Source of the DNA: Acidobacteriota bacterium
GTDB taxonomy: Bacteria > Acidobacteriota > Vicinamibacteria > Vicinamibacterales > CAVVIG01
Reading direction: 5' to 3'
NCBI GenBank assembly: GCA_017883165.1
Contig: JADGOC010000005.1
Location: 1 to 57,246, forward strand
DNA: 57,246 nucleotides
Position 1 is the stretch's first letter, and each line of letters opens with the position of its first letter. Position numbers and translations under genes: made by a program. Below, in pieces: positions 42,952 through 46,256 of this stretch. The notes under the pieces are model-generated. The model was not told the origin of the DNA. It was given only the letters and a program-made list of their open reading frames with translations, and made no database searches.

Positions 42952-43938
42952 ATGCCGTTAGAGACCCTCGAATTCGAAGAGCCGATCGCCGTTCTCCTGA
43001 AGGAGATCGAGGCGCTGACGCTGCTGCCGCGCACCGACGGCCGAGATAGGGAGATTGATGCGCTCGGGCGCCGCCTCGAATCGGTGCGCGCCGAGATCTA
43101 TCGCTCGCTCACGCCGTGGCAGCGTGTCCAGGTGGCGCGCCATCCGAATCGTCCGGGCCTCGAGGATTTCATCGCGCGCCTGTTCACCGGCTTCGTGGAG
43201 ATCCACGGCGACCGCCGGTTCGCCGACGATCACACCATCATGACCGGCTTTGCCGAGTACAAAGGGGAGCCGGTGCTGGTCGTCGGGCACGTCAAAGGGA
43301 AGGACACGAAGGAAAAGATCTTCCGCAACTTCGGGTACGCGCGGCCGGAGGGCTACCGGAAAGCGCTGCGTGCAATGCGTCTCGCCGAGAAATTTCATCG
43401 CCCGGTCATTGTCTTCGTCGACACGCCGGCGGCCTTCCCCGGCATCGAATCCGAAGAGCGGGGCGTGGCCGAGGCGATCGCGGTCAACCTGCGGGAGATG
43501 ATGCTCCTCGACACCTCCGTCATCGTCATCGTCAGCGGCGAAGGCGGGAGCGGCGGCGCGCTGGGGATCGCGGTCGGCGATCGCGTGCTGATGCAGGAGT
43601 TCGCGATCTATAGCGTCATCCCGCCGGAAGGGTGCGCGTCGATCCTGTGGCGCGATCAGGCGAAGAAGGTGGAGGCAGCCGCCGCGCTCAAGCTGACGGC
43701 GCCCGACCTGCTGAAGGCCGCGATCATCGATGAGATCATCCCGGAGCCGATCGGCGGCGCGCACACGGATCCCGCCGCGGCCGCGCGGCTGGTGGACGAC
43801 GTGCTTGTACGCGTGCTGGCGGAGGTGAGCAGCCTCGACAGCGAGACGCGCCTCGGACGGCGGTACGACATGTTCAGAAGCATGGGTAGGATTGGGATTG
43901 ATTTTGTCGATGAGGGTAGTCCTGGGTCATCGTCATAA
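42952..43938 (+). CDS. accA: Acetyl-CoA carboxylase carboxyltransferase subunit alpha
   Basis: FTGFVEIHGDRRFADDHTIMTGFAEYKGEPVLVVGHVKGKDTKEKIFRNFGYARPEGYRKALRAMRLAEKF. Confidence 0.97.
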   Translation: MPLETLEFEEPIAVLLKEIEALTLLPRTDGRDREIDALGRRLESVRAEIYRSLTPWQRVQVARHPNRPGLEDFIARLFTGFVEIHGDRRFADDHTIMTGFAEYKGEPVLVVGHVKGKDTKEKIFRNFGYARPEGYRKALRAMRLAEKFHRPVIVFVDTPAAFPGIESEERGVAEAIAVNLREMMLLDTSVIVIVSGEGGSGGALGIAVGDRVLMQEFAIYSVIPPEGCASILWRDQAKKVEAAAALKLTAPDLLKAAIIDEIIPEPIGGAHTDPAAAARLVDDVLVRVLAEVSSLDSETRLGRRYDMFRSMGRIGIDFVDEGSPGSSS

Positions 43939-43942
43939 ATGC

Positions 43943-43968
43943 ACTACCACGGAGGGCACGGAGGGCGG
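43943..43968. repeat. Left inverted repeat flanking the GxxExxY gene (actaccacggagggcacggagggcgg)
   Basis: Near-match to the reverse complement of 44400-44423 (ctaccacggaggacacggagacgg). Confidence 0.75.
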
Positions 43969-44001
43969 ATTCTGCAAACTGCGGGCACGGAGGACGGAAC
44001 G

Positions 44002-44466
44002 CTAGTACCCACTGATGCGCCGTCTAATCCCTTTCTTCAAATGCGCCACGTTGAAATTGATGAGAAGGCCGACGCGCTTTCGACTGAGCTTCAGGTACGA
44101 CAAGAGTTGCGCCTCGTGCACGGGAAGAAGCTTCTCGACCGCCTTCACTTCGACGATCACCGCATCTTCGACCAGCAGGTCGACTCGGTACCCAAGATGA
44201 ATGACCACCCCGTCGTATTCGACCGGAAACGGCTTTTCGGCCTCGAAGGCGCCGCCGAGTTGCAGCAGTTCATGAGCCAAACACGCGCGATAGGGTCGTT
44301 CGAGCAGACCCGGACCGAGTCTGGAGTGCACCTTGTAGGCGGCATCCACGATGTTCTGTGTAATGGTGCTGTGAATCAGAGGAATGCCGTGCCCTCCGTC
44401 CGTCTCCGTGTCCTCCGTGGTAGCGCCTTTGGTTGCACTTTTCTGAAGCAAGTGCCGCACCAACAA
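44002..44466 (-). CDS. GxxExxY protein, PD-(D/E)XK / RecB-like nuclease fold
   Basis: GPGLLERPYRACL (GxxExxY); GYRVDLLVEDAVIVEVKAVEKLLPVHEAQLLSYLKLSRKRVGLLINFNVAHLKKGIRR with D...ExK...QxxxY; start codon uncertain. Confidence 0.9.
   Translation of the reverse strand: MLVRHLLQKSATKGATTEDTETDGGHGIPLIHSTITQNIVDAAYKVHSRLGPGLLERPYRACLAHELLQLGGAFEAEKPFPVEYDGVVIHLGYRVDLLVEDAVIVEVKAVEKLLPVHEAQLLSYLKLSRKRVGLLINFNVAHLKKGIRRRISGY
44400..44423. repeat. Right inverted repeat of the GxxExxY cassette, coding for TTEDTET
   Basis: ccgtctccgtgtcctccgtggtag; lies within the 5' part of the GxxExxY ORF. Confidence 0.75.
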
Positions 44467-46193
44467 TGATCCCCCCTCGCTGGGAACACAGCGTCTGCGA
44501 CGAACCGTCGGCCGCGGCCCTCGCGGCGGCGTTGGATATCGCCCCCACGGTGGCGCGACTCCTGTGCCAGCGCGGCTTGAGCGATCCGGAGCTCGCCGCG
44601 CGGTTTCTTCATCCGTCGCTCGATCACCTGCACGACCCGATGGCGCTCGCGGATATGGGCGTCGCGGTCGACCGCATCATGAAAGCGATCGCGGCGAAGG
44701 AGCGGATCGCCATCCACGGCGACTACGACGTCGACGGCGTCACTTCGACGGTGATCCTGCGTCGTGCGCTGGAGCTGCTCGGCGCCGACGTCGTGCATTT
44801 CATTCCCGAACGGCTGAAGGACGGCTACGGCCTGCTGCCGGCGGCGCTCGATCGGCTGCATGCCGACGGCGTGTCGCTCGTCGTCTCGGTCGACTGCGGC
44901 ATCCGCGGCGCCGACGCCGCCCGGCGGGCGCGCGAGCTGGGCGTCGATCTGATCATCACCGACCATCACGAGCCGGATGTCGAGCTGCCGGCGGCGCTCG
45001 CGGTCATCAATCCGAAGCGGCACGACTGCTCGTACCCGGACAAGAACCTGGCCGGCGTCGGCGTGGCGCTGAAAGTCGTGCAGGCGCTCTGCCAGCGCGC
45101 CGGACGCGAGCAGTGGCTGCCGGGCTTCGTGAAGGTCGCGGCGATCGGCACGCTCGCCGACGTGGTGCCGCTCGTCGGCGAGAACCGCGTGATCGCGAAA
45201 ATCGGCCTCGACCTGCTCACGAAAGGTCCGCACAAGGTCGGCCTGCGCGCGCTCCTCGACGTCTCGGGCCTCACGGGTAAGACGATTGACAGCTACCACA
45301 TCTCGTTCATGCTCGCGCCGCGCGTCAACGCGGCGGGGCGCATGAGCACGCCGGACATCGCCACGCGGCTGCTGCTCGCGTGCGACGAAGCGATGGGCGA
45401 TGAGGCGCGTCAGCTCGCGCTGCAACTCGATGCCGAAAACGTGAAGCGCCAGCAGGAAGAAGCCGAGATTGTCGCGGCGGCGAAGAAGATCGTGCAGACC
45501 GATCCGGAGATCGGCGCGAAGTCGGTCATCGTCGTGGCTGGAGAAGGCTGGCATCGCGGGGTGATCGGCATCGTCGCCTCGAAGCTCGTGGACGCGTTCC
45601 GCCGGCCGGCGATCGTGCTGTCGATCGAAGGTGACACGGCGTACGGATCCTGCCGCAGCATTCCGCACTTCGACATGCTGGGCGCGCTCGAGCGCTGCGC
45701 GCCGCTCTTCATTCGCTTCGGCGGCCACAAGCAGGCGGCCGGCGTGACGCTCGAAGCCGGGCGCATCAAAGCGCTGCGCGCGGCGGTGAACGCGGTCGCG
45801 GACGAAACGCTCGGCCCCGACGATCTGATGCCGCGGCTGCGCATCGACGGCGACCTGTCGTTCCGGACGATTACCGATCCCGTGGCATCGGGGATCGCGT
45901 CGCTGGCGCCGTTTGGCGCCGGCAACCCCCGCCCGGTCTTCTCCGCCCGGCGCGTCGCGATCATCGACGGCCCCAGAAAGCTGAAAGAGCGCCATCTCAA
46001 GATGTCGCTGAAGCAGGACGGCCGCATCTTCCGCGCCGTCGCCTGGCGCGCCGCCGAGCGTCACGACTACCTCGCCGAGCACAAAGCCGCGCTCGACGTC
46101 GCCTTCTCCCTGGAGCAGAACCAGTACAATGGAGCCACGTATTTGGAACTTACGCTGGCAGACCTCAAGAAATCTGAGGATGTAGGGATCTGA
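44466..46193 (+). CDS. recJ: Single-stranded-DNA-specific exonuclease RecJ
   Basis: IAIHGDYDVDGVTSTVILRRALELLGADVVHFIPERLKDGYGL; DLIITDHHEP; APRVNAAGRMSTPDIATRLLL; RFGGHKQAAGVTLE. Confidence 0.97.
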   Translation: MIPPRWEHSVCDEPSAAALAAALDIAPTVARLLCQRGLSDPELAARFLHPSLDHLHDPMALADMGVAVDRIMKAIAAKERIAIHGDYDVDGVTSTVILRRALELLGADVVHFIPERLKDGYGLLPAALDRLHADGVSLVVSVDCGIRGADAARRARELGVDLIITDHHEPDVELPAALAVINPKRHDCSYPDKNLAGVGVALKVVQALCQRAGREQWLPGFVKVAAIGTLADVVPLVGENRVIAKIGLDLLTKGPHKVGLRALLDVSGLTGKTIDSYHISFMLAPRVNAAGRMSTPDIATRLLLACDEAMGDEARQLALQLDAENVKRQQEEAEIVAAAKKIVQTDPEIGAKSVIVVAGEGWHRGVIGIVASKLVDAFRRPAIVLSIEGDTAYGSCRSIPHFDMLGALERCAPLFIRFGGHKQAAGVTLEAGRIKALRAAVNAVADETLGPDDLMPRLRIDGDLSFRTITDPVASGIASLAPFGAGNPRPVFSARRVAIIDGPRKLKERHLKMSLKQDGRIFRAVAWRAAERHDYLAEHKAALDVAFSLEQNQYNGATYLELTLADLKKSEDVGI

Positions 46194-46244
46194 GGATGTA
46201 AGGATGTAAATCCTGCCATCCTGCAATCCTCCCATCCTGCAATT
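46173..46244. repeat. Nine imperfect tandem octamers overlapping recJ 3' end
   Basis: tctgagga tgtaggga tctgagga tgtaagga tgtaaatc ctgccatc ctgcaatc ctcccatc ctgcaatt. Confidence 0.85.
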
Positions 46245-46256
46245 CAAGATTCACCC

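Follow-up and report, generated by a model that had tools for sequence, protein, structure and literature searches.

A GxxExxY PD-(D/E)XK nuclease gene between inverted arrays of short repeat units: a probable REPIN/RAYT-like system with an unrelated enzyme

We have analysed a window of 57,246 nucleotides from an Acidobacteriota bacterium, in which a small minus-strand open reading frame (ORF; 44002-44466, 154 residues when read from a TTG at 44466) lies between accA (42952-43938, plus strand; PF03255, 425 bits) and the divergent recJ (44466-46193, plus strand; DHH, DHHA1 and RecJ_OB domains). The identities of both neighbours were confirmed with Pfam, and the locus is kept in relatives. In profile searches the ORF matched TIGR04256 (141 bits, cut-off 35) and PF13366 (135 bits, cut-off 22) over the whole domain, and the GLLERPY, D...EVK and QLLSY residues that the original prediction had read in it were confirmed. 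The PD-(D/E)XK nuclease domain spans 44020-44367 on the minus strand, and its GxxExxY motif and D-ExK-Q catalytic residues, all present in the window protein, were invariant in an alignment of 59 sequences. This is the only PF13366 gene of the 4.24-Mb host genome. Just past recJ, at 46180-46250, the window carries another type of inverted short-unit array (GAGGATGTAGGGATCTGAGGATGTAAGGATGTAA / ATCCTGCCATCCTGCAATCCTCCCATCCTGCAAT).

The nuclease gene is bounded by two inverted arms. The left arm, 3' of the gene (AAATGCACTACCACGGAGGGCACGGAG, 43937-43963, plus strand; inverted repeat I1 and direct repeat D1), contains two CACGGAG units, has dispersed homologues and starts within the accA stop codon (43936-43938); degenerate additional units continue past it to 43998. 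The right arm, 5' of the gene (AAAGGCGCTACCACGGAGGACACGGAGACGGACGGAGGGCACGG, 44387-44430, minus strand; inverted repeats I1 and I3), pairs with the left one over 27 nt at 89% complementarity (43937-43963/44404-44430), which is longer than had been claimed, and a second, exact pair of 13 nt was found at 43949-43961/44387-44399. With 300-nt flanks, the arm match scored 21, compared to a mean of 11.6 for dinucleotide shuffles, 0.05% of which scored as high (P = 0.0005). The sequence CTACCACGGAGGNCACGGAG, allowing up to 2 mismatches, occurred at 16 sites in the host genome, and its reversed control at 0. At the genome level the window arms are not a product of chance, the genome-wide sites being far stronger evidence than the shuffles.

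It had also been proposed that the right-hand repeat encodes the N-terminus of the protein. Read from the TTG at 44466 (MLVRHLLQKSATKGATTEDTETDGGHG...), the ORF indeed stays open across the right arm, but it contains no ATG, and translation of the arm is doubtful here. Several orthologues at the same locus have an ATG immediately past the arm (MRPNE, MLLHAD, MLHED and others), and residues 1-25 of the AlphaFold model of the window protein are disordered (pLDDT <50), the model being confident from about residue 30. Because of these two observations, the right arm is more likely an untranslated leader, with GGAGG as a Shine-Dalgarno-like stretch, and the true start probably lies just past it, the ATT at 44385 being one candidate. 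Among the protein clades described below, clade B has its conserved ATG before the arm, which may be translated there (MNxPQSHRDTE). At a further locus (L004, G000:C166:1051), a lone arm leads directly into a type IV pilin-like start (GFSFIELLV), and the repeat may be read as a pilin leader.

To look at GxxExxY genes elsewhere, we have compared, in the genomes of 60 relatives (mostly fragmented assemblies), the 300-nt upstream flank of each gene with its reverse-complemented downstream flank. True pairs scored 28.0 on average, versus 13.1 for mismatched pairs, 14.0 for far flanks and 15.7 for the direct orientation, and the own partner arm ranked first of 29 in 19 loci. In a larger set, inverted arms with a score of at least 20 flanked 45 of 62 GxxExxY genes and only one of 104 control genes, which were copies of eight neighbouring genes (p = 4e-18). 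A genome-wide scan supplied 80 named loci from Bacteroidota, Chloroflexota, Verrucomicrobiota, Planctomycetota, Acidobacteriota, Gemmatimonadota, proteobacteria, cyanobacteria, a parachlamydial genome and archaeal MAGs; in the 79 testable ones true arm pairs scored 24.2 and mismatched pairs 12.7, with termini such as TTCACCACAGAGGACACAGAG. Base composition or a genome-wide repeat style as the cause of arm matching was rejected on the mismatched pairs, far flanks, control genes and same-genome pairs. The arms of locus L054 (G049:C74) were near-identical and very long (score 72, GGGAACGGAGGAGGGAACGG), and the same contig (G049:C74:36731-37562) has, about 5 kb away, CACGAAG repeats in a periodic run of ~160 bp.

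The arms are arrays of 8-9 nt units of the CACGGAGGA type, and the groups of the nuclease-domain tree match the arm groups. The unit of clade A is CAC(G/A)(G/A)AGGA (period 9), that of clade B CACAGAGN (period 8), that of clade C CACGAAGN (period 8) and that of clade D CCGC(A/G)(A/G)AGR (period 9), while an order-level group has CACAGATTA. Between genomes, higher protein identity went with more similar arms (Mantel r = 0.47, P = 2e-4). Genes of different clades in one genome had arms at background similarity; therefore, genome style does not account for the arms. It is with the protein clade, and not with the genome, that the repeat unit varies. When the cognate repeat was predicted within the family, the AUC was 0.94 for repeat D with clade D, 0.87 for B with B and 0.77 for A with A; repeat C had no specificity for its own clade (0.70, versus 0.78 for clade D). 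Clade A arms vary from genome to genome, yet the two arms of a pair match inside most genomes. Units of GGACACAAAGG occur in large numbers in G017, G009 and G025, where the accA-recJ copy has arms of this kind, and G000, G006 and G026, with other arms at their accA-recJ copies, have almost none.

The accA-recJ adjacency was kept in nearly all relatives examined. All ten clade A genes sit at this junction and their flanking genes are common to 45 of 45 pairs; therefore, the window copy is old and vertically inherited. On these grounds a recent mobile insertion at accA-recJ was rejected, and the compact mobile unit of the original prediction found no support. Flanking genes were likewise common to same-clade pairs in clades B (15/15), C (35/36) and D1 (6/6), compared to 4 of 691 pairs between clades. 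They were less fixed in clade D2, which was mixed (17 of 27 pairs), and in clade F (0/10); not every GxxExxY lineage is fixed in place. The gene was absent from 50,697 phage records and present in 8 of 72,556 plasmids, all non-mobilizable, which would fit a chromosomal gene that has been domesticated, as RAYTs are described to be (PMC8049555).

It had been suggested that the accA-recJ junction of close relatives be compared for an empty site and a target duplication. Empty junctions of 2-50 bp were found in many of them, whereas no target-site duplication was evident by eye in four host-genome pairs and at the dnaE-accA junction. The accA-recJ junction was partly decayed in G016, G005 and G015. 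In G012 it contained an internally deleted element, with both arms still in place around the first nine codons (MRPNEASHA, also read in G025) and the few bases that precede the 3' arm; a gene-less palindrome can thus arise by internal deletion. Between dnaE and accA, clade-C-type palindromes of ~80-140 bp were present in G012, G017, G009, G005 and G023 and absent, leaving a gap of 3-40 bp, in twelve other genomes. Therefore, palindromes have been gained or lost at orthologous sites. As regards the original prediction, these comparisons are mixed: where the gene is present its neighbours keep their order, yet the repeats change in concert and show enrichment, and some sites are empty or decayed.

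Inverted pairs of the repeat were found with and without a GxxExxY gene in the host genome and in relatives, as predicted. Several CTACCACGGAGGNCACGGAG sites of the host genome are short gene-less inverted pairs (e.g., C106:5613-5706, C189:12365-12461 and C193:26969-27057). G017 has 224 clade-A unit sites, and an inverted partner was present at 27 of the 30 sites examined, forming palindromes with a median length of 97 bp. Their outer ends are sharp (AACTCTCCACCACGG...), with no conserved sequence outside them and a non-conserved spacer. Such palindromes fold into very stable stems (-60 to -79 kcal/mol), and dispersed gene-less copies reach hundreds per genome. In two genomes (L025, G000:C321; L126, G017:C208), a clade-A-type palindrome lies directly before a gene that starts with ATGAGCAAAGTCGT(A/C)GG and looks like dnaK; the two are possibly orthologous.

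The repeat load was higher in genomes with the gene. With four repeat types summed and pattern thresholds that were set after the arms had been seen, at least 10 copies were counted in 28 of 32 genomes with PF13366 and in 2 of 28 without it (p = 2e-10, 60 genomes), counts that are phylogenetically correlated and partly confounded by phylogeny and array phase. Among genomes at least 90% complete, the corresponding figures were 17/21 and 0/26. Within-lineage contrasts made by eye always gave the gene-bearing genome the higher load, e.g., 87 copies in G022 versus 0 in G007 of the same genus. For pattern B, the control made by reversal has the array phase in common with it and cannot count as independent. 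In G038 the repeat copies number 199 and a count of clade-D-type repeats gave 196, and no PF13366 gene was detected in it at 86% completeness; the gene was either lost or is missing from the assembly. The host genome carries C- and B-type repeats beside a GxxExxY gene of clade A only, and therefore gene loss is needed there. G050, which has seven GxxExxY genes, gave 27 matches to the reversed control pattern (GAAGCACAGAAGCACAG-like), a mirror-type array (cf. the arms of L195).

A similar layout was seen for PF05635 (23S_rRNA_IVP), a four-helix-bundle family. Its genes at loci L142-L171 of the relatives also lie between inverted arrays, but these are made of heptamers (GGGATTC, GGGACTG, CAGTTTT, TCAGCTG). 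True pairs scored 27.5 and mismatched pairs 11.9, with a period of 7 in 15 of 17 arms. PF05635 and its heptamer arrays are a second repeat/protein pairing, and given this similarity such a layout does not by itself imply nuclease activity.

The pairing of repeat and nuclease had been likened to REP/RAYT, an analogy that the unit/clade covariation and the enrichment of repeats where GxxExxY genes are have supported. We consider it probable that the locus is part of a REPIN/RAYT-like system with an unrelated enzyme, i.e., a functional analogue built on a PD-(D/E)XK nuclease. This reading starts from what was observed: the architecture, the covariation of clade and unit, the higher load with the gene, the vertical inheritance, the deletion derivative and the presence or absence of palindromes at an orthologous junction. 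From these we infer that the nuclease binds and cuts the repeat, thereby driving its spread or upkeep. In the proposed system, a chromosomal GxxExxY gene keeps its place, flanked on both sides by inverted arrays of the 8-9 nt unit that belongs to it, and inverted pairs of this unit with a short variable spacer between them make up the dispersed non-autonomous palindromes. A palindrome would fold into a hairpin, when single-stranded during replication, or into a cruciform; the nuclease would recognise the cognate unit array in this folded form and cut there, and host repair would copy the hairpin or re-insert it at other sites. Internal deletion of the gene-bearing copy would yield new gene-less palindromes.

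Alternatively, the palindromes could be spread by other machinery, such as an HUH RAYT-type transposase, replication slippage or template switching, with GxxExxY as cargo in the palindrome loop. That the majority of copies are gene-less, that the unrelated PF05635 family sits in similar inverted arrays and that Y1_Tnp genes occur in 43 of 60 genomes all fit this explanation, which we nevertheless regard as unlikely. Y1_Tnp presence did not track repeat load in these genomes (p = 0.08): G010, G011, G022 and G047 hold 50-279 repeat copies and no Y1_Tnp, and 16 of the 17 genomes with Y1_Tnp and without PF13366 have at most 4 copies. The HUH transposase was rejected as the driver on this co-occurrence. 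Moreover, the unit varies with the GxxExxY clade and not with the genome, and the genes stay at fixed loci without hopping among palindromes.

The arms could instead act in RNA, pairing in the transcript for processing, autoregulation or mRNA stability, with the dispersed palindromes as RNA hairpins bound by the same protein. Arms that bracket one small ORF, as in the 23S intervening sequences (PMC4990558), the very stable stems and the Shine-Dalgarno-like GGAGG in the arm would suit such a role. Against it stand the assignment of the domain to the PD-(D/E)XK nuclease superfamily, with conservation of every catalytic residue, and the presence or absence of palindromes at DNA junctions, which is gain or loss of DNA, so that we hold an RNA-level element to be improbable. 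A nuclease that removes or repairs hairpins at cognate repeats, in an SbcCD-like housekeeping role, would let gene-bearing genomes tolerate more repeats. The higher load with the gene, the vertical inheritance and a weak Cas4/lambda-exonuclease-like fold match (below) would all agree with this role; it leaves unexplained why the gene lies between cognate arms and why arm and protein change jointly at one locus, and appears to us quite improbable.

Returning to the REPIN/RAYT-like reading, the nuclease gene appears to drive or to maintain a repeat family not described in the open-access papers searched. More broadly, and only tentatively, GxxExxY nucleases might power a second class of repeat propagation, independent of HUH enzymes, across bacteria and probably some archaea, in which each lineage recognises its own palindromic 8-9 nt unit and copies non-autonomous palindromes while the gene stays static. 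GxxExxY proteins are widespread and without known function, and the cutting or spreading of a cognate palindrome offers a testable one, with a specificity code of clade versus unit. If true, much anonymous intergenic repeat DNA would be explained in Acidobacteria-like, verrucomicrobial, bacteroidete, planctomycete and other genomes, and domesticated repeat/enzyme pairs like REPIN/RAYT would have evolved at least twice, from unrelated classes of enzyme. Judging from the heptamer arrays around PF05635 genes, the principle may extend further still.

Compared to known systems, the window gene is a full member of the GxxExxY family (TIGR04256; PF13366, PDDEXK_3), with all conserved residues, and the family is annotated without function. 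Searches of open-access papers found no description of a link between GxxExxY, PF13366 or TIGR04256 and cognate repeats. A search of solved structures by sequence gave no match for the window protein. Foldseek with its predicted model returned Cas4 SSO0001 (4ic1; probability 0.92, E = 0.011) and LHK-Exo (probability 0.82), at TM-scores of about 0.3-0.4. Cas4 and lambda-exonuclease-type enzymes act on DNA ends and single strands; this weak match of the model to the Cas4/RecB/lambda-exonuclease fold would be compatible with the proposed cutting and is not proof of it. Unlike Cas4, the protein lacks the four-cysteine iron-sulphur set (a single cysteine in the 154-residue ORF) and the locus has no CRISPR context; a PADLOC scan gave only weak Cas4 matches (17.8 bits).

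Like the 23S rRNA intervening sequences with S23/IVP (PF05635), the locus has a small ORF between inverted repeats, but it lies at accA-recJ instead of in an rRNA gene, encodes an unrelated protein (PF13366) and has units of 8-9 rather than 7 nt. The short gene-less palindromes from internal deletion (G012) recall the MITEs of DD(E/D) insertion sequences; unlike in classical IS/MITE pairs, there is PDDEXK_3 only and no DDE transposase, and the gene-bearing copy is static. At the sites inspected by eye, no target-site duplication was evident.

The closest parallel is with REPIN/RAYT. REPINs are inverted pairs of short repeats with a variable spacer, dispersed and non-autonomous, and the RAYT gene is chromosomal, vertically inherited and located between inverted repeat copies, with more repeats in gene-bearing genomes (PMC8049555, PMC8266576). 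The present system likewise shows paired inverted repeats with a short, diverse spacer between them (27/30 sites in G017, median 97 bp), a single-copy, vertically inherited, repeat-flanked cognate gene at a fixed locus per clade (45/45, 15/15, 35/36) and a higher repeat load with the gene (28/32 vs 2/28). It differs in its cognate enzyme, a PD-(D/E)XK protein and not an HUH tyrosine transposase, the window protein matching PDDEXK_3/GxxExxY only. The GTAG tetranucleotide at the repeat foot is not general: CTAC/GTAG is present in the host arms, the majority of copies in G017 have CCACCACGG, and other clades lack the tag. Finally, its ~97-bp palindromes are built of arrays of 8-9 nt units, and a single genome can hold several clades that differ in their units.
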